From assembly GCA_021814165.1 (NCBI GenBank), contig JAKAIX010000005.1, forward strand, positions 1 through 45,324: a DNA stretch of 45,324 nt, in the 5' to 3' direction. Positions 3,635 through 16,222 of the stretch are shown one piece after another; positions within the stretch are counted from its first letter, which is position 1; each line of letters starts with the position of its first letter. Made by a program: the position numbers and the translations under genes. The notes under the pieces were generated by a model that did not search any database, had not been told where the DNA came from, and saw only the letters and a program-made list of their open reading frames with translations. This DNA is from a bacterium. Its GTDB lineage: Bacteria > Patescibacteriota > Minisyncoccia > UBA6257 > GWB1-50-10.

Positions 3635-3892
3635 TTACGACTTTAGGCTGCGGGATATCCTCCGTTTTAATTGAGTATACACTTTTCCAAACTGTTTTAT
3701 TTTTTTCTCTCTTTCCTTTGCATCCTCCCTATTGCTGTAAATCTCGCAATAGACCAATTTCCAGGGAATGTAGCGTTTTGTTGAGGGTGAAATGCCGTCA
3801 TTGTGTTCCCGCAGCCTTCGTGTGATATTTTCTGTAAACCCAATATAGAGTGTGCCGTTTTGGGAGCTTTTCAGTATATAAACAAAGTACAT
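3635..3892 (-). CDS. GIY-YIG domain nuclease, small stand-alone type
   Basis: An 85-residue protein consisting of one GIY-YIG domain. The first strand pair reads YFVYILKS and TLYIGFT, followed by the basic helix RRLREHN with the conserved Arg, and later SNREDAKEREKKIKQFG with the conserved acidic residue. Family members of this size (UPF0213/UvrC-like) are common and their cellular roles are mostly unknown. The ATG at 3892 was preferred to a TTG six codons upstream. The ORF is bracketed by identical 18-bp direct repeats (3617-3634 and 3919-3936), the left one touching the stop codon, which suggests that gene and repeats move or duplicate as a unit. Confidence 0.85.
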   Translation of the reverse strand: MYFVYILKSSQNGTLYIGFTENITRRLREHNDGISPSTKRYIPWKLVYCEIYSNREDAKEREKKIKQFGKVYTQLKRRISRSLKS

Positions 3893-3918
3893 AGGTATGA
3901 TTATGTACAATAGTAGGG

Positions 3919-5311: not shown

Positions 5312-5620
5312 ATGAAAGTAAAAATCGCGGACGATTCGGTGGAACAATTCCTCTTTTCTCTAGAGAAAAAAACACTCGTGAAGACATTAAGAACGGTTGA
5401 TCTTCTCGAAACGTTTGGAGAACATCTCATAATGCCTCACGCAAAGAAAATCAAAGACGGTATATTTGAGCTTCGGGTAAGGGGAGAACAGGAAGTCAGG
5501 ATTTTCTATATATTTCATAAACGAACGGCGGTTTTGCTTCACGGTTTTGTGAAGAAAGGTTCCAGAATCCCGCTTCGAGAACTCCGTGTCGCACAAAAAA
5601 AACGTTTGACATTGATATAA
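5312..5620 (+). CDS. RelE/HigB-type toxin (phage Gp49-like family)
   Basis: A 102-residue protein with the Gp49-like/HigB fold signature. It has an N-terminal helical part (VEQFLFSLEKKTLVKTLRTVDLLETFG), then KKIKDGIFELRVRGEQEVRIFYIF and AVLLHGFVKKGSRIPLRELRVA. Family members are ribosome-dependent mRNA endonucleases or their relatives. It sits 22 nt upstream of an XRE antitoxin, with the toxin first, which is the usual HigBA order. No transposase remnant is adjacent, but two REP palindromes lie just upstream. Activity cannot be inferred from sequence alone. Confidence 0.85.
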   Translation: MKVKIADDSVEQFLFSLEKKTLVKTLRTVDLLETFGEHLIMPHAKKIKDGIFELRVRGEQEVRIFYIFHKRTAVLLHGFVKKGSRIPLRELRVAQKKRLTLI

Positions 5621-5634
5621 CGTATATGTTATAT
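5606..5634 (+). promoter_or_regulatory. Possible internal antitoxin promoter and operator
   Basis: TTGACA (5606-5611), 17 nt and then TTATAT (5629-5634) form a good sigma-70-type pair in the end of the toxin gene, 8 nt before the antitoxin ATG. The arms ataac and gttat (5617-5632) form an interrupted palindrome across it, a possible autoregulatory site. Confidence 0.5.
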
Positions 5635-5642
5635 ATAAAAAT

Positions 5643-5915
5643 ATGAAGAATTATGGAACGGTAAAAAAGAAAATACTGCAGGACAAAGAAACGAAGAAAA
5701 TGTACGAAGCGCTTGAACCTCAGTTTAGGGTTATAAAGTTGATAATCCGCAAAAGGACGCAGAAAGGGATAACCCAGAAAGAACTCGCAAATCTCATCGG
5801 CACAAAACAATCGGCCATTTCGCGTTTCGAATCAGGAGACTACAATCCAACGATATCTTTCTTATATAAGCTTGCTGACGCGTTGAATGCGGAACTTACG
5901 ATATCCGTAAAATAA
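5643..5915 (+). CDS. XRE-family helix-turn-helix antitoxin (HigA-like)
   Basis: A 90-residue DNA-binding protein. The Cro/C1-type HTH covers about residues 40-88, with ITQKELANLIGTKQSAISRF as the helix-turn-helix and DYNPTISFLYKLADALN as the following helices. In HigBA systems such proteins bind the toxin and repress the operon. The gene starts at an ATG 22 nt after the toxin stop and may have its own promoter inside the toxin end. The N-terminal 35 residues are lysine-rich and helical, as in other antitoxins of this group. Confidence 0.87.
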   Translation: MKNYGTVKKKILQDKETKKMYEALEPQFRVIKLIIRKRTQKGITQKELANLIGTKQSAISRFESGDYNPTISFLYKLADALNAELTISVK

Positions 5916-7930: not shown

Positions 7931-7966
7931 GTCCTCAAAAAATCACATATGTGATTTTTTGAGGAC
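7931..7966. repeat. 36-bp perfect palindrome, copy 1
   Basis: The left half gtcctcaaaaaatcacat (7931-7948) is followed directly by its exact reverse complement (7949-7966), with no spacer. The same 36 bp recurs at 8531-8566. The right end overlaps the -35 region of the Cas2-like gene, so protein binding here could control that gene. Confidence 0.95.
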
Positions 7967-7977
7967 ACTGTGCATGC

Positions 7978-7983
7978 TATAAT
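7978..7983 (+). promoter_or_regulatory. -10 box TATAAT for the PaaX/Cas2-like gene
   Basis: TATAAT ends 6 nt before the ATG at 7990. The T-run and TTGAGG at the right end of the palindrome occupy the -35 position. Confidence 0.6.
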
Positions 7984-7989
7984 GGGAAT

Positions 7990-8508
7990 ATGGCAAAAAC
8001 CTCCGGCGGTGCACAGCGGCACGTGAGAGAAATATGCGAGCTTTTCGGTGCCGTGAATGCAGTGGGGTGTGCGGTGGTAGAAGAACTCCTCGCGCGACAC
8101 GATCGAAAGAAATATCTTCGTCAGAGCCTCCAGCGTCTCCAGGTGCGTGATCTCATTTCAAAAAGCGGCGACGCATATAAACTTACCCCGAAAGGCATTC
8201 TTTTTTTCTCCCGTTATCGAAAGAGAAAAAAGATTGACGAGTCAAGAACGAAGTGGGACGGGAAATGGCGGCTAATTAGTTTTGATGTGCCCGTAAAAGA
8301 GAATGCAAAACGTTTCGTGCTTCTTCGCGCGCTTAAAGAATCCGACTTTTATCAGTTACAGAAAAGCGTGTGGATAGCGCCTTATAAAATGTCCGAGGAA
8401 TTCTGGAAGTTCGTGGTGACGAACAATCTTCATAGTTATTGCAAAGTAATGTTGATTGACGTATTGGAAGGAGACAGGGAATTGAAAAGGCATTTTCATC
8501 TCGCGTGA
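7990..8508 (+). CDS. PaaX-like protein: winged helix plus Cas2-like domain
   Basis: A 172-residue protein. Residues 1-75 look like a winged helix (LRQSLQRLQVRDLISKSG, then DAYKLTPKGILFFSRY). A basic linker RKRKKIDESRTK follows. Residues about 91-172 match the Cas2/PaaX C-terminal ferredoxin-like fold: WRLISFDVPVKENAKRF with the conserved first-strand aspartate (Asp99), then FYQLQKSVWIAPYK. Automatic annotation would probably call it Cas2, but there is no Cas1 and no CRISPR array here. The closest established architecture is the PaaX repressor family. The gene lies between two identical 36-bp palindromes and is probably transcribed without a leader. Regulator or palindrome-processing nuclease are both open. 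Confidence 0.75.
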   Translation: MAKTSGGAQRHVREICELFGAVNAVGCAVVEELLARHDRKKYLRQSLQRLQVRDLISKSGDAYKLTPKGILFFSRYRKRKKIDESRTKWDGKWRLISFDVPVKENAKRFVLLRALKESDFYQLQKSVWIAPYKMSEEFWKFVVTNNLHSYCKVMLIDVLEGDRELKRHFHLA

Positions 8509-8528
8509 TTAATAAGAAGGGGAGAGAG

Positions 8529-8568
8529 ATGTCCTCAAAAAATCACATATGTGATTTTTTGAGGACAT
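8529..8568. repeat. 40-bp perfect palindrome, copy 2
   Basis: It contains the same 36 bp as copy 1 (8531-8566), with two further paired bases on each side (at...at). It starts 20 nt after the stop codon of the PaaX/Cas2-like gene, exactly 600 nt from copy 1. No -10 box lies beside this copy, unlike copy 1. Confidence 0.95.
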
Positions 8569-9310: not shown

Positions 9311-9770
9311 AAAAATCCAAATTACAAATGCCAAATGCCAAACCAAGCACAAAATCCAAATGACAAAAGATACGACCTCGAAGAACGTACCCAGATATTT
9401 GGAGAAGCCATTATCGAGTTTGTAAAAACACTTCCCATGACGCCTATTATTATGCCCCTTATCAATCAGATCGTACGCTCCGGTACAAGTATTGGCGCCA
9501 ACTATATGGAAGCCGACGGTGCGGAGTCAAAAAAAGATTTCGTGCACAAGATCGGCATCTGCAAAAAAGAATCAAAAGAGACGCTTCATTGGCTTCGCAT
9601 GATTGCAAAGGCAGTCCCTGAAAAGAAAGACGGATGCAGATTTCTTTGGAAGGAAGCGCACGAGTTCACTTTGATATTTTCATCCATTATTAAAAAAGCG
9701 CAGACAAAACGTGTTTGACATTTGGTCATTAATGTATTGATTTGACATTTGGCATTTGAATTTTGGCATT
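9311..9770. mobile_element. Hairpin-bounded four-helix-bundle element 1
   Basis: AT-rich arms surround the four-helix-bundle gene: about 9311-9370 on the left and 9711-9770 on the right. The best block, caaatgccaaatg (9325-9337), pairs perfectly with catttggcatttg (9746-9758). The arms overlap both ends of the gene, so the first codons and the stop lie within the stem. This is the layout of 23S rRNA intervening sequences, where the same protein family is found. Mobility is an inference. Confidence 0.6.
9335..9718 (+). CDS. Four-helix-bundle protein (23S rRNA IVP / S23 family)
   Basis: A 127-residue, mostly helical protein. Family marks are YDLEERTQIFGEAIIEFVK, then LINQIVRSGTSIGANYMEAD, KKDFVHKIGICKKESKETLHWL and a last helix ending FSSIIKKA. 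The family is named from proteins encoded in 23S rRNA intervening sequences. It is also related to the Avd accessory protein of diversity-generating retroelements, but no reverse transcriptase is present here. The first 12 residues (MPNQAQNPNDKR) are encoded by the left arm of the flanking inverted repeat and may be non-essential. The molecular function of stand-alone members is unknown. A paralogue lies at 16307, on the far side of the giant fibre gene. Confidence 0.88.
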   Translation: MPNQAQNPNDKRYDLEERTQIFGEAIIEFVKTLPMTPIIMPLINQIVRSGTSIGANYMEADGAESKKDFVHKIGICKKESKETLHWLRMIAKAVPEKKDGCRFLWKEAHEFTLIFSSIIKKAQTKRV

Positions 9771-9772
9771 CC

Positions 9773-12700
9773 ATGAAAAGTACTAGATTATTAACTTTCG
9801 CTATCCTCTTCCTCATAACGGGATTGTTTTCTATTTCCATTTCTCTTGCGTTCACCGGTCCTACCGCCGGGCAGACGCCGGGGAGCGGGTCGGGGATGAT
9901 CTCGGTTGACCCGAGCGGCAACCTCGGCTTCGGCACGAACAATCTTAACCTCGGCACGAACTTCAACACCCCGCCGGGAGGGACATTCAGTAAGATTTTC
10001 ACAATCGCTTCAAGCTCGACGCCTCCGGGCGTAAACCTCAGAAACATTGCTTCGGCTTGCGGCGCGAGCGGCTGTTCCGGATACAGTCTCTATCCCGCAA
10101 GCTACGTGATGGACATCACGCCGTGGGGCTGGCTTGAATTTTATGATGCGCAAAACAGTGCCCGCCGCGCGTTTGTGATGAATAACGGCTATTTCGGAGT
10201 GGGGTCTTCGCCTACGAACCCTTCCGCGCTCTTCATGGTGAACGGCGGCGATGCGCGATTTTCGGGAAATCTCTATTCTTCAAGCTCGTTCGTAGGAAAC
10301 CTTTCGGGGAGCATTTCTTCCGCAAATGTTTCTTCGGGCGTGTTCGGGAGCTTGCAGGGGAACGGCAACTTCGCGTTTCCCGCGAGCGTGGGAATCGCGA
10401 CTTCGTCCCAGAACGGTCTACCGCAAGCACTTTCCGTGCAGGGTAATGGGTACTTCAGTGGTTTGCTGGGGGTCGGGACGGCGAGCCCAACAGAAAAGTT
10501 GTATGTTTCTGGCGGAAACATTGCTATAGAAGGGACAATCAACGGAACGGGTTATGAACTTTTTAACACAAACGGGATTTTAAGATGGATAGCGAGAGGA
10601 GTAAATAACGAAGTCGGTAGCAATTCGGGTTTTGATTTAGATTTTGTATCAAGAGATGATCTGGGAAATGGTTTGGCAGACGTATTAACCCTAAAAAGAA
10701 CAGGCAACGTCGGCATTGGGACTATAACCCCCGCTAATCTATTGGAAATAAAAGGTTCCCCAGGTGGCGGAGGAAATCTTCGTTTGACTGGCACAAACGG
10801 TAATATGGGTTTTGAAATGGTGAACACTGCAGGAACCACATATAACTGGAGAGTCGGTGGACAGAATGCGGTATATAACGGTTTTGATATAACTCCATCA
10901 ACCGCGGCAGGAGGAACAACTTATTCAAATCCTGCGTTAGTGATTTTAAATACGGGAAGAATTGGTATTGCGACCACAACCCCCAATACTGCAGGGCTTG
11001 TCGTCGCGAACGCGGTCTCTGGGGCGGCGATTGATGTGAACAGCAACCGCATCGTGAACGTCGGTACTCCCGTGAATACCGGCGATGCGGCGAATAAGTC
11101 GTATGTCGATTCCGTCGTGGGCGGTGGGGGAAGCACGGGGAGCTTTACGACACTCACCGTTACGGGCACCTCGACACTCGCAACGACGGGAGGAAATGTG
11201 GGAATCGGGACGGCGGCGCCTGCAGAAAAATTAAGCTTGGGAGGTGGAAATATAACTCTCGGGGACGCGTCTGGCTCTTCTCAATATATTGGTCTGCTTC
11301 ATAGCAGTAATCGTTATCGGGTTAATTTCAATGGTTATAATGCTGGAAGTTATATTGGTATTGAAGCAGGTAGTAATGAGGGATTAAAGGTTTTGAACAC
11401 CGGAAATGTATTAATACCTATAGGCAATCTTGGCATCGGGACAGCGGGACCAAGAAGTAAATTAGATGTGAATGGTGGAATGGATCTAGCTTATGCGGCT
11501 TCGACTTTAGCTAATAATGCTAGCGCAATCAGATGGGAGAACGGTTCGTCAATTACTTCGGCTTTCGGTTTTGTAGTTCAGAATGGTGTTTGGTATCAGG
11601 GTTCTAACGATACAGGTAATCAGGACTTCGGAGTACGAGGAGGCACTGTCGATGGCAGCTTGGGGACGGTTAATTTTGTAGTAAAAGGAAATGGCAACGT
11701 AGGCATCGCGACCACCTCCCCCGCGTACAAACTCGATGTCGTGGGAGGCGGAAGATTCTCCCAGCCCGTGGGAGTGGGGACGCCGATCAACACAGGCGAT
11801 GCCGCGACGAAATCGTACGTCGATTCCTCGATTACCAATAACGTAAGTCAGTGGACCACTACTTCGACCGGCGTGTATTACAACGGCGGGAATGTGGGGA
11901 TAGGGACGACAAGTCCGGGGCAAAAACTCGAGGTGAATGGAAACGCTTTAGTAACTAAGTTAGGAATTGGACAGCTAGATGCGGCTAATTACGTTCTTGA
12001 TGTTGGCGGTGCCGCACGTATATCCTCTAATGGTAATGTTAATTTCAATCAGGCAGCGGGAACTGCGACATTTTCCAGAGATGTATATTTAGCGACCGTA
12101 GCTGGCAACGTCGGTATCGCGACTTCCTCTCCCGCCGACAAACTCGACGTAAAGGGGAACGGTATCTTCAGAAACAACCTCTCCGCAGACACCTTCTACG
12201 ATCAAGGCAACAGCGGGTATTATATCGACCCCGCGGCAAACATCATGCCGTACTCCGCGCTCTTCGCGGGGAATGTGGGAATCGGGACGACGGCACCGGG
12301 GGCGAAATTAGATATTAATGGTACAGCTTTTATAGAAGGTAGCGGAACTTTCACAACGACAAGTAATGCTTTGTCGTTATATTCTAACGATGTCACTGCT
12401 TACAGGATTGGTTTTGATAGCCAAGGTGGTGCTGTAGGATATATTCGAGCTAATGTTATCGCCGGTTCTGCTTCTAATACTTGGGGGACCGCGATCGGAC
12501 ATTCTATATCGACCACACCAAATACTCTGGTAACAGATTTGTTTGTAGGGGCAAGCGGCAACGTCGGCATCGGGACGACGAGTCCAAATAATAAATTACA
12601 AATAGGTTCTGTACCTAGTTACAGTGGAAATCAATTTGCAATAGGTGATGGAACTAATCAATTTGCTCTTTATGTTGCTGGTACACCATCATTTTATTCA

Positions 12701-15700
12701 AATAACAACTTTGCCTTTCTATCTAGTGGCGGAGGAACTGGTAGTGTTGGCATTGGAACTACAGGACCACAGTCAAAATTAGATTTTGGTACCAGTGTTG
12801 CCAATAATAAAATTATAATCGGAACATATATGAGTGGTAACCAGTGGACTGGAATTGGTATGGATACCACAACTGCTGGTATTAGGATTGCGGGAGATGT
12901 TTCTGGAGGGATTCAGCCATTAATGGACGTTGGGCTGTATTCAAATGATGCTAGTCATAACTGGACTAGTCGCATGATTGTTCAGGGAAACGGCAACGTC
13001 GGTATTGCCACCACCTCCCCCGCGTACAAACTCGATGTCGTGGGAGGCGGAAGATTCTCCCAACCCGTGGGAGTGGGAACACCGATCAGTGCGAGTGATG
13101 CCGCGACAAAATCCTACGTTGATTCCTCAATTACCGGCGGCTCCGGTTCCACCGTCGGCTACTGGACTGCCTCCTCCACCTCGATTTACAACTCGAATGC
13201 GGGGTATGTGGGGGTAGGAATTACAAATCCGAGCGAGAAGTTTGAGGTTGCGGGCGGTTCTTTAAGAATTGATGGACAAGCAAGTAATTTCTCATTAGGT
13301 TCTCCCGGTTTGAATTTGGACTATTCTCCTGGAGGTGGAAATATTGCCCGGATTTACACAGTACCGGGAACAAGCGGCAGTTCTTATGATTTGTCTTTAG
13401 GCGCAGGCGCCAGTGAAGCAATACGTATCAAAGTAGGCGGCAACGTTGGTATCGGCGTATCTCCCACTGCGAAACTCGACGTGAACGGAAACGTATCCGC
13501 CCCGATGTACTACGACCGCGACAATACGAACTACTATATCGACCCCGCGGCGAACGTGATGCCGTACTCGGCAACGTTTGCGGGAGCTGTGGGGATCGGG
13601 ACGACGGCGCCGGGATCTCCATTGGAAGTGTATTCGGTGGGGACAGATAACACTTTAACAACAAACATGTATTTGAGTGCGGGTCATGGAACGAATAGGC
13701 AAATTGCTTTAGGATTTGGCAGAAATGATCACTATAATGCTTATCAATCGAGGATTGTAAGTAATATGAGTTCTGTGACTACATATGGAAGCACCTTGCA
13801 ATTTCAGACAATGGGTACTTCCGCTGGCACTTGGAATACGGGTTTGTTTATCGACACAAGCGGCAGTGTCGGCATCGGGACGACGAGTCCAGGAACGATA
13901 TTAGATGTGGTTGGTGGATATATAAGAGCTAGGGATAACGCTTCCTATGGAGCCGCATTTATGCAGGGTGCAAACGGCGTTTCGTATTTTGGTAATACTG
14001 GAACTTCAAGAATTGCAATCGGTAATAGCACAAATTATGAAAGGGTAACAATTTTAGATAACGGTAACGTCGGTATTGGAACGACAGGACCAGTAAACGC
14101 TCTTGAAGTAAAAGGTGCGAACGGTTCACCGAGTTTGTCAGCAGACACGAACGGTATATTTACAATTCATAATGGGACAACAAATGAGACCTTACAATTC
14201 GGAAGTCTTTCAGCGAATCCATATTCTTCTTGGATTCAAGCAAAAGACTCAAATAACATAGGTAACTCCTATCCAATTTCGTTGAATCCACTTGGTGGCA
14301 ATGTCGGCATCGGGACCTCCACTCCTGCAGGACGGCTTGATGTGGCGAATGGAAACATTGTAAACGTCGGCGCTCCGATTAATGCGAATGATGCCGCGAC
14401 GAAGAACTATGTAGACAGCGCAGTGTCGGGCGGTAGCGGACCATGGACGCTCTCCGGCTCGAATGTGTATACCACGAATATGGGATACAGCGTTGGTATT
14501 GGAACGGCGAGTCCGTGGGCGAAGTTGGATATTTCGAGCGCTGATGCATCTACTGGTTTAGCAGGCGGGACGTTTTTGAGAGTTGTGAATACCAACCAGA
14601 GCACCAGTACAAAGGCAGGTATTGGTTTTACTGCGGAGCCGAGTAAGGGGAGTGCTCTGAGCTTGATTTGGAGTCAGGTAACAAATGCTGGCAATGGTGC
14701 TTCCACACTTAACTTTTCTACATATGATGGTGGAGTGTGGCATGATCCCGCTATGACAATAAGCGGCGGCAGCGTTGGTATTGGCACAACCTCCCCCGGC
14801 ACAAATCTCGACGTGAACGGAAATGCAGAGGCGCAAATGTACTATGATCGGGACAATACGAATTACTACATCGACCCCGCCGGAAATGTGATGAACCCAG
14901 CTGTAAATGTAGGGGGGCCAATAAAGACAAGCTATACTAACGGCGGTATCGGTCCAAGTAGCGCCCATCTTGTCTTAGAAAATCCAGCCGGCAGTCAAAC
15001 GGAACAATATTTCACTTTTGGTGGCGTACAAAAGAGTTCAATCCGCGTCGATTCAGCTGGGAATATGGTATTAAATGCTGCGAGTGGGAACCTTTATCTC
15101 AATAATGATTTTGGAGGAAATGCAAGCATTTGGAGTGGCAACACGAATACCATAACTTTGTTAAATAACGGCAACGTCGGCATCGGGACAGTGTCACCAA
15201 GTGGAAAATTGCAAGTTGGAACTTATGGAACTATTTCTGCCCCGACATACGGTGTTGGAAATGGGGACGGGTTGATATTTGATTTTTTCAATGTTGGTAA
15301 TCCATATACAAGATTTGGAAGGATAGTATCATCAGCGGGTGATGCATCTGAAGCGAGATTGAGTTTCTTCACAAAAGATTCGTCTGCAAACCCAACGGAA
15401 AAGGTCACAATATTAGGAAACGGCAACGTCGGCATCGGAACGACGAGTCCAGCCACTACCCTTCATGTAGATGCTGCTGGCGGAGGAATCATAAGAGTAA
15501 CGCGATTAGGATCGGGAGCTGGCTTTATCCAACTTGAAGCAGATGGGACCAATGGAACATTGACGACAACCAATGCTACTATTTTTCAAACAGGTGGTAG
15601 TGAGAGAATGAGAATTTTAAGCACCGGCAACGTCGGCATCGGGACGACGGGACCGTCATTTACAGGTTCAGCAATAACTAGTCCTATAGGCATCGAATTA

Positions 15701-16222
15701 TCTAATACCGCGCCCGAGTTCCGTATCACCCGTACGGGGGGAGGGGCGAGAAGTTATGGCTTAGAAGTAGACAGCAATGGAGCATTCTATATAAACGATG
15801 ATTCTGCTGGGGCTACCGCTCAACGAATATCTATACTCACTTCCGGAAACGTCGGCATCGGGACAGCTGGTCCGGATGCAAAACTCACCATAAGCGGGGA
15901 CTACTATTCTCCTCTCGTGGTAAAAGGCAACTGCACGGGAGCGGTTACCGTTGACTGGAGCGCGGGAAACAGCCAGCACTGCGTGCTTACGGGAAACACA
16001 ACATTCACCTTCACAAACGGCAAGACTGGCGGCAACTACCGTCTCATTCTGAAGCAGGGAGGAACGGGATCATACACCGCGACCTGGCCCGCGTCCGTGA
16101 GGTGGGGGAGCGGCGCCGTTCCGACGCTCACGACGACGGTGGGGAAGAGCGACTACGTGGGCTTCCTCTATAACGGAGTGGATGCGACCTACGACGGAAT
16201 TGCGTTTAATGCGAATTTCTAA
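9773..16222 (+). CDS. Giant secreted fibre/adhesin with NVGIGTTSP repeats
   Basis: A 2149-residue protein with a signal peptide (cleavage likely near SLA26-FTG). The body has about 26 copies of a GNVGIGTTSPxxKLxVxG motif separated by unlike segments of 30-60 residues. Sub-repeats are DAATKSYVDS (4 copies) and YYIDPAANVMPYS-like (3 copies). The C-terminus (TGNTTFTFTNGKTGGNYRLIL, then TWPASVRWGSGAVPTLTTT and GVDATYDGIAFNANF) is a cap domain known from phage tail and surface proteins. The self-cleaving S74 chaperone domain common on similar fibres is not seen. Beta-solenoid, possibly trimeric, attachment fibre is the likely role. Conserved motifs are GC-rich while several inter-motif segments are AT-rich, suggesting cassette exchange. 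ATG at 9773 fits the signal peptide better than the upstream TTG. Confidence 0.85.
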   Translation: MKSTRLLTFAILFLITGLFSISISLAFTGPTAGQTPGSGSGMISVDPSGNLGFGTNNLNLGTNFNTPPGGTFSKIFTIASSSTPPGVNLRNIASACGASGCSGYSLYPASYVMDITPWGWLEFYDAQNSARRAFVMNNGYFGVGSSPTNPSALFMVNGGDARFSGNLYSSSSFVGNLSGSISSANVSSGVFGSLQGNGNFAFPASVGIATSSQNGLPQALSVQGNGYFSGLLGVGTASPTEKLYVSGGNIAIEGTINGTGYELFNTNGILRWIARGVNNEVGSNSGFDLDFVSRDDLGNGLADVLTLKRTGNVGIGTITPANLLEIKGSPGGGGNLRLTGTNGNMGFEMVNTAGTTYNWRVGGQNAVYNGFDITPSTAAGGTTYSNPALVILNTGRIGIATTTPNTAGLVVANAVSGAAIDVNSNRIVNVGTPVNTGDAANKSYVDSVVGGGGSTGSFTTLTVTGTSTLATTGGNVGIGTAAPAEKLSLGGGNITLGDASGSSQYIGLLHSSNRYRVNFNGYNAGSYIGIEAGSNEGLKVLNTGNVLIPIGNLGIGTAGPRSKLDVNGGMDLAYAASTLANNASAIRWENGSSITSAFGFVVQNGVWYQGSNDTGNQDFGVRGGTVDGSLGTVNFVVKGNGNVGIATTSPAYKLDVVGGGRFSQPVGVGTPINTGDAATKSYVDSSITNNVSQWTTTSTGVYYNGGNVGIGTTSPGQKLEVNGNALVTKLGIGQLDAANYVLDVGGAARISSNGNVNFNQAAGTATFSRDVYLATVAGNVGIATSSPADKLDVKGNGIFRNNLSADTFYDQGNSGYYIDPAANIMPYSALFAGNVGIGTTAPGAKLDINGTAFIEGSGTFTTTSNALSLYSNDVTAYRIGFDSQGGAVGYIRANVIAGSASNTWGTAIGHSISTTPNTLVTDLFVGASGNVGIGTTSPNNKLQIGSVPSYSGNQFAIGDGTNQFALYVAGTPSFYSNNNFAFLSSGGGTGSVGIGTTGPQSKLDFGTSVANNKIIIGTYMSGNQWTGIGMDTTTAGIRIAGDVSGGIQPLMDVGLYSNDASHNWTSRMIVQGNGNVGIATTSPAYKLDVVGGGRFSQPVGVGTPISASDAATKSYVDSSITGGSGSTVGYWTASSTSIYNSNAGYVGVGITNPSEKFEVAGGSLRIDGQASNFSLGSPGLNLDYSPGGGNIARIYTVPGTSGSSYDLSLGAGASEAIRIKVGGNVGIGVSPTAKLDVNGNVSAPMYYDRDNTNYYIDPAANVMPYSATFAGAVGIGTTAPGSPLEVYSVGTDNTLTTNMYLSAGHGTNRQIALGFGRNDHYNAYQSRIVSNMSSVTTYGSTLQFQTMGTSAGTWNTGLFIDTSGSVGIGTTSPGTILDVVGGYIRARDNASYGAAFMQGANGVSYFGNTGTSRIAIGNSTNYERVTILDNGNVGIGTTGPVNALEVKGANGSPSLSADTNGIFTIHNGTTNETLQFGSLSANPYSSWIQAKDSNNIGNSYPISLNPLGGNVGIGTSTPAGRLDVANGNIVNVGAPINANDAATKNYVDSAVSGGSGPWTLSGSNVYTTNMGYSVGIGTASPWAKLDISSADASTGLAGGTFLRVVNTNQSTSTKAGIGFTAEPSKGSALSLIWSQVTNAGNGASTLNFSTYDGGVWHDPAMTISGGSVGIGTTSPGTNLDVNGNAEAQMYYDRDNTNYYIDPAGNVMNPAVNVGGPIKTSYTNGGIGPSSAHLVLENPAGSQTEQYFTFGGVQKSSIRVDSAGNMVLNAASGNLYLNNDFGGNASIWSGNTNTITLLNNGNVGIGTVSPSGKLQVGTYGTISAPTYGVGNGDGLIFDFFNVGNPYTRFGRIVSSAGDASEARLSFFTKDSSANPTEKVTILGNGNVGIGTTSPATTLHVDAAGGGIIRVTRLGSGAGFIQLEADGTNGTLTTTNATIFQTGGSERMRILSTGNVGIGTTGPSFTGSAITSPIGIELSNTAPEFRITRTGGGARSYGLEVDSNGAFYINDDSAGATAQRISILTSGNVGIGTAGPDAKLTISGDYYSPLVVKGNCTGAVTVDWSAGNSQHCVLTGNTTFTFTNGKTGGNYRLILKQGGTGSYTATWPASVRWGSGAVPTLTTTVGKSDYVGFLYNGVDATYDGIAFNANF
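11693..11838 (+). repeat. Long near-identical internal repeat of the fibre gene, copy 1
   Basis: The segment encoding GNVGIATTSPAYKLDVVG through AATKSYVDSSIT is nearly identical at DNA level to 12992-13137, exactly 1299 nt (433 codons) away. In-frame recombination between the copies would delete or duplicate 433 residues. Confidence 0.8.
12992..13137 (+). repeat. Long near-identical internal repeat of the fibre gene, copy 2
   Basis: Second copy of the 146-nt segment at 11693. Differences are mostly synonymous, except around GVGTPISASDAA versus GVGTPINTGDAA. Confidence 0.8.

Follow-up and report, generated by a model that had tools for sequence, protein, structure and literature searches.

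A small PaaX/Cas2-like gene bracketed by cognate palindromes in Patescibacteria and its possible role in a REP-like dispersal system

A small gene lying between two copies of one long palindrome is not a local oddity of the contig on which it was noticed. Bracketing by cognate palindromes is a trait of its protein family in the Patescibacteria: a matching pair of upstream and downstream palindromes was found at 92 of 143 distinct family genes, as compared to 37 of 851 mismatched pairings in which the upstream sequence of one gene was combined with the downstream sequence of another. Very probably, the palindrome is at once the cognate site of the protein and a sequence that disperses. We consider it somewhat probable that gene and palindromes together form an autoregulated, REP-like dispersal system whose master unit would be palindrome-gene-palindrome and which would be built on a Cas2-like protein devoid of the HUH motif. 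That the protein itself catalyses the dispersal is a more tentative proposition, which we are slightly inclined to doubt.

The window, i.e. the whole stretch of 45,324 nucleotides that was analysed, is one of the 11 contigs of a 786-kb genome carrying a single member of the family. This genome is labeled G000 and that of its sister species G001; other G and L numbers designate genomes and loci of relatives. The features of the locus are the following.

7931..7966, no strand: upstream palindrome GTCCTCAAAAAATCACATATGTGATTTTTTGAGGAC, 36 bp, perfect (18-bp arms, zero loop, zero mismatch), overlapping the -35 region of the gene and matched in homologues
7975..7983, + strand: extended -10-like promoter element TGCTATAAT, just outside the upstream palindrome, identified by sequence inspection and unscored by the consensus scan
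7990..8508, + strand: 172-aa mini-PaaX gene, with a winged helix at about residues 1-80 and a Cas2-like domain at 87-157, without the ligand-binding PaaX_C
8248..8460, + strand: PaaX_M/Cas2-like domain with the Cas2 signature (FDVP D99, R108, QKSVW S126)
8529..8568, no strand: downstream palindrome, 40 bp, perfect, 20-bp arms, with the identical 36-bp core at 8531-8566

Re-derivation of the coordinates confirmed the original prediction of a gene bracketed by two identical loop-free palindromes 600 bp apart, as measured from core start to core start. The reading frame begins 23 nt past the first copy and ends 20 nt before the second, and is indeed the sole gene between them, the remaining frames being short or antisense. 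The first copy had also been placed over the -35 region. This overlap is real and could be refined: the -35 hexamer is poor (TTTTTT) and the promoter resembles the extended -10 type, its -10 element lying outside the palindrome. A sigma-70 consensus scan of the locus returned nothing over threshold, and no separate promoter lies close to the downstream palindrome. For the Nomurabacteria group, a -10 box, TATAAT, is part of the right arm of the upstream palindrome, and upstream palindromes are less symmetric than downstream ones. Because the upstream copy overlaps the promoter, autoregulation through it is likely. This overlap, together with the -10 box located in a palindrome arm in the related group, also makes an operator function likely. 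The arrangement fits autorepression, by analogy with insertion sequences that have the transposase promoter inside one (left) end. Such elements likewise hold a gene between matching ends, with a promoter over the upstream end and the downstream end near the stop codon; in contrast, each end here is a complete palindrome, with no known transposase domain in the protein and no target duplication seen.

The window protein matches the Cas2-like PaaX_M model PF20803 (6e-16) and, weakly, HTH_45 and CRISPR_Cas2. The Cas2 cut-offs are missed (16.8 bits vs 23.8 for Pfam, 13.7 vs 24.5 for NCBIfam), and the PaaX equivalog TIGR02277 scores 25 bits for a cut-off of 264.55. In a domain search of family members, 30/30 matched PaaX_M; PaaX_N and PaaX_C matched neither these nor the window protein, and no Y1 transposase family or any other transposase domain was found among the 30. 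Judged by family models, such a gene resembles a PaaX regulator or Cas2 and is easily overlooked. Residues F98, D99, P101, R108 and S126 are invariant across 30 homologues, whereas E. coli PaaX lacks the Asp equivalent to D99. The full-length PDB folds closest to an AlphaFold2 model of the 172-aa protein (mean pLDDT 85) are those of E. coli PaaX (8a39, E 1.7e-5) and Rv0674 (3kfw), with VapD and Cas2 chains as weaker matches. When sequence profiles are compared to the PDB, Cas2 chains come out best by virtue of the FDxP...R...QKSV[FW] signature. The signature residues hint at a possible cleavage or hairpin processing of the palindrome by the protein; the Cas2-type Asp may be structural, and we know of no catalytic activity in PaaX_M domains. 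An HUH motif was considered and rejected, since conservation does not extend to the C-terminal HFH of the window protein and alignment A2 contains no conserved H-x-H. A defence system was discarded as well, PADLOC models giving weak partial matches at most.

PF20803 is present in 97 of 286 sampled Patescibacteria genomes, with up to 11 copies in a genome of about 1 Mb. The relatives named by the homologue scan (alignment A3) belong to Candidatus Jorgensenbacteria and other Patescibacteria lineages. The cognate-pair test given above used 143 distinct genes; palindromes were also scored around 82 focal genes and in a set of named genomes, these two sets overlapping in part. Scores of at least 10 were obtained in 40 upstream and 43 downstream windows of the 82 focal genes. 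Such palindromes appeared in 0% of the dinucleotide shuffles for the upstream side and in 0.5% for the downstream side and were absent from a shuffled half genome, so that chance is excluded as their origin. In the named-genome set, a score of at least 9 was reached at 40/82 upstream and 39/80 downstream sites of family genes, vs 10/133 and 15/157 at other genes of the same loci. The original prediction depended on homologues carrying palindromes: cognate ones are carried across the Patescibacteria, and they flank both sides in homologues down to about 25% identity. Every subfamily has a palindrome sequence of its own, drawn on a common plan of outer box, free spacer and palindromic centre (CATATG, CGATCG, CGGCCG, CCATGG, CTATAG, GGTC and others). 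A clear pair is missing in about a third of the family genes, in particular among members of 240-270 aa, most of which are without palindromes, and E. coli paaX is devoid of paired flanking palindromes. Viral carriage was rejected as the main route; a single IMG/VR match was obtained, without a clear palindrome pair, and phages are unlikely to be the main carriers.

Among 28 palindromes with a CATATG centre, 94% of the cells pair. Symmetric double changes account for 88 cells vs 27.7 in shuffled sets, an excess that is partly inflated by the selection of these sets for palindromicity, and G-U type cells for 2 of 476. The comparison across subfamilies is confounded by differing protein specificity and was hence repeated within genomes, where symmetric changes amounted to 180 vs 35 shuffled in G008 (p<0.001) and to 8 vs 2.2 in G001 (p=0.046); these sets were likewise selected for palindromicity, with some inflation of the symmetry. 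The symmetry thus outlasts the sequence; together with the scarcity of G-U intermediates, this speaks against an RNA stem. Between the upstream and downstream copies of one element, 43 changes are symmetric, 44 one-sided and 6 of other kinds, the symmetric ones being clustered 8-11 nt from the centre. The palindrome extends by at least 3 bases into locus-specific sequence in 11 of 84 copies (2.0 expected), and in L008 into a coding end; such extensions are expected from replication template switching as well as from a hairpin-copying step.

The palindrome had been expected to recur away from the gene and without any ORF, and does so both in the window's genome and in relatives. Solo palindromes were surveyed by reading about half of two genomes in stretches and by pattern searches. 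At least seven ORF-less solos are present in the window's genome: one decayed copy of the window's type (type A), located between ligA and gatC, and six of a second type (type B) having no cognate gene in that genome. Symmetric changes in this orphan type are not above shuffles (11 vs 6, p=0.12), and it looks decayed. Five solos of the window's type occur in G001 and many solos in G007, G008, G021 and G025, and G003 contains solos without a cognate gene. The spaced pattern CTCA-CATATG-TGAG, searched in the window's genome and 58 relatives, is found in 17 of the 35 genomes of the window's taxonomic family and in 0 of 24 from other families, the reversed control being 0 everywhere. Its presence goes with that of the close protein subfamily (11/12 genomes vs 6/23, p=3e-4), with mean copy numbers of 5.1 in the presence and 0.5 in the absence of this subfamily, flanking copies included. 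The gene flank closest to a solo belongs to its own genome or genus in 29 of 49 cases (plus 5 ties), as compared to 6.0 and a maximum of 15 in label shuffles. One pattern reaches a maximum of about 13 copies per genome, which is few in comparison with classical REPs.

In G007, three solos are identical and a fourth is nearly so, and one asymmetric (hybrid) variant is found at three places in G025, all in unrelated flanks. We read these copies as pointing to a palindrome copied as a unit. With respect to gene calls made by a simple ORF picker, and therefore approximate, 17 of 38 solos lie between convergent genes, which represent 20% of the intergenic length (p=6e-4), a preference that is hard to reconcile with operators. 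Some solos precede a start by about 60 nt or less; many palindromes sit just past stop codons, and A/T tracts adjoin some of them. In the G025 solos (L287-L293) and L195, the left and right arms belong to two different types, as though an exchange of halves had occurred at the centre CATATG. In G024, two solos are embedded in a stretch of about 177 bp that is 85% identical between them and located near secA and alaS (L072:1840-2090 and L073), these two copies representing a possible larger non-autonomous repeat. A further dispersed perfect palindrome is present in G008, where half a genome contains four copies and none is known to have a family gene as neighbour.

L188:510-533, L191:5909-5936, L192:68-91 and L199:12625-12648 (G008): copies of GGTGGTATACTTAAGTATACCACC

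The element is syntenic in G000 and in the sister species G001, and is therefore vertically inherited there. In the window's lineage, movement of the gene is thus rare and turnover of the solo palindromes fast. A search for empty sites in close relatives had been suggested; orthologous sites do differ in content. The site at the trxB 3' end carries a solo of another type in G018 and a different element of the family in G027, but neither of the two in G002, while in G024 the element lies further from trxB in the opposite orientation. The ligA-gatC gap is occupied by type A in G000 and by two other types in G003, and is empty in the majority of the other genomes. In G009, the gene next after ligA is a family member. 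The orthologous gap at argS 3' also contains different elements, solos or nothing. Homology may be limited to the element: in the pairs L227/L236, L254/L267, L220/L245 and L205/L284, identity reaches 72-77% over the gene alone and the flanks are unrelated. Homologues in L242 and L257 are 98% identical, their DNA identity stops at the downstream palindrome and about 0.9 kb is extra in one genome; the palindrome thus marks a rearrangement boundary there. In the comparison of G000, G001, G002 and G003, intergenic DNA did not align and was too diverged between species for an exact empty site or a target duplication to be defined; at the solos inspected by eye, exact empty sites being lacking for comparison, no target duplication was visible.

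The proposed mechanism starts with recognition of the cognate palindrome as a twofold-symmetric site by mini-PaaX, through its winged helix and Cas2-like dimer domain. Bound upstream, the protein would repress its own promoter. It would also act on palindromes, probably via a hairpin, cruciform or centre-cut intermediate, and the 34-40 bp palindrome would be copied to other intergenic sites, where solo copies would be left. The whole gene unit would move or be transferred more rarely than the solos. Cognate pairing, solos matching the resident gene, symmetry persisting beyond sequence, unrelated flanks and element-limited homology can be read from the sequences; from there we infer binding, autorepression and a copying driven by the protein and not by the host. 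Among the counterpoints to such a system, the repressor PaaX is the nearest full-length fold, copy numbers are low, no exact empty site could be drawn, type B solos of G000 have no gene and about one gene in three has no clear pair. A broader reading, which we hold to be slightly less likely than not, is that of a phylum-wide class of selfish DNA: a Cas2-type protein fused to a winged helix would recognise its own palindromic ends, cut them and copy them, thereby spreading both unit and solos. To our knowledge, proteins of the Cas2-like/PaaX_M type do not drive self-spreading repeats, and no account of such a system was found in the open-access papers searched, which does not prove that none exists.

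An operator and a mobile or hairpin-processing unit had been opposed in the original prediction, which preferred the unit. The tests favour the unit, and the operator reading is also likely, the two being compatible. The main rival is a pure repressor with dispersed operators. The gene would then encode a small autoregulated transcription factor, the downstream palindrome would help by looping, the solos would be the operators of a regulon, and the symmetry would be that of a homodimer site polished by quasi-palindrome correction in replication. This explanation agrees with the winged helix and PaaX-like fold, with the upstream palindrome over the promoter and the TATAAT in its right arm in the Nomurabacteria group, with the co-variation of palindrome and protein and with those solos close to starts. 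We nevertheless regard it as unlikely: nearly half of the located solos are placed between converging genes, a position in which promoters are not expected, the same asymmetric variant occurs in three unrelated flanks of G025, orthologous gaps have, lack or change palindrome type, the spacer is symmetric though its sequence is free, and a matching downstream palindrome, away from the promoter of the gene, recurs phylum-wide.

Less probable still is a dispersal of the palindromes by another activity, such as a transposase of the host or of another element or recombination, mini-PaaX being a resident binder that silences, protects or rides on them. The absence of a known-transposase catalytic motif, the weak full-length similarity to repressors and the palindromes without cognate gene (type B in G000, solos in G003) would be accounted for, but the solos match and co-occur with the resident gene, the gene-less type B looks decayed and one architecture recurs with many unrelated palindrome sequences. 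Bidirectional terminators or RNA hairpins unrelated to the activity of the protein are very improbable. The frequent location just after stop codons and the occasional A/T tracts are in their favour, against which stand the rarity of G-U cells beside the many double changes, a palindrome sequence specific to the adjacent protein subfamily and the existence of an upstream copy at the promoter. Rfam returned no match near the gathering score, the sub-threshold ones being mostly microRNA models. An RNA hairpin or terminator as sole function was rejected on the basis of near-absent G-U intermediates and protein-specific sequence.

The preferred reading, an autoregulated dispersal system, has its closest parallel in RAYT/REP, where a small gene is bracketed by two cognate palindromes with ORF-less intergenic copies, compensatory changes preserve the palindrome and the palindrome type follows the gene (PMC2817692, PMC8266576). 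TnpA-REP has an HUH/Tyr centre, and GTAG is needed in E. coli (PMC8266576). Cognate bracketing, intergenic solos, compensatory symmetry and a gene-linked palindrome type are shared with this RAYT/TnpA-REP system (REPtron, IS200/IS605-related). In contrast, the present protein combines a winged helix with a Cas2-like domain and has neither HUH motif nor catalytic Tyr; its palindromes, lacking both a loop and a GTAG/GTGG head, are twofold symmetric, whereas REP is a looped hairpin with such a head; copy number is much lower, and the hosts are Patescibacteria instead of gammaproteobacteria. The system is best viewed as a functional analogue and not as a RAYT, because HUH/Tyr and GTAG are both absent. 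With the PaaX repressors (8a39, 3kfw), it shares the succession of winged helix and PaaX_M Cas2-like domain and a likely repression of its own promoter. It is not a canonical PaaX, since PaaX_N and PaaX_C are not matched; the locus has no paa operon or link to phenylacetate degradation, and the family differs from E. coli PaaX by its invariant Cas2-type FDxP/R/S and by paired palindromes on both sides. The FD(I/V)P...R...QKSV[FW] signature is common to the present protein and to Cas2 of CRISPR adaptation and VapD-type ferredoxin-fold nucleases, from which it differs by a fused winged helix and by a gene standing alone between two palindromes; neither a CRISPR-type repeat array nor cas1 was seen among the neighbours examined.

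If correct, the dispersal reading would provide a second, independent REP-type system, using a protein unrelated to RAYT, and would extend the Cas2-like domains to a DNA-mobility role outside CRISPR. Repeats dispersed by these genes would constitute natural families useful in strain typing and in following gene exchange among uncultured bacteria. Should the proteins be repressors only, a long palindromic site changing with each paralogue would still offer a rich set for the study of protein-DNA co-evolution.

The neighbours of the element in the window include a TrxB-like reductase and a cupredoxin. Near it, an ORF of 2157 aa (9749-16222, +) contains many NVGIGT-type repeats and resembles a tail-fibre or surface protein. 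A Gp49-like (HigB/RelE-type) gene followed by an HTH_3 gene (5312-5915, +) is a likely toxin-antitoxin pair, and a small stand-alone GIY-YIG nuclease gene (Pfam 5e-18) is present at 3635-3910 (-). A protein of the 23S rRNA intervening sequence family is encoded at 9335-9718 (+), here beside ordinary protein genes.
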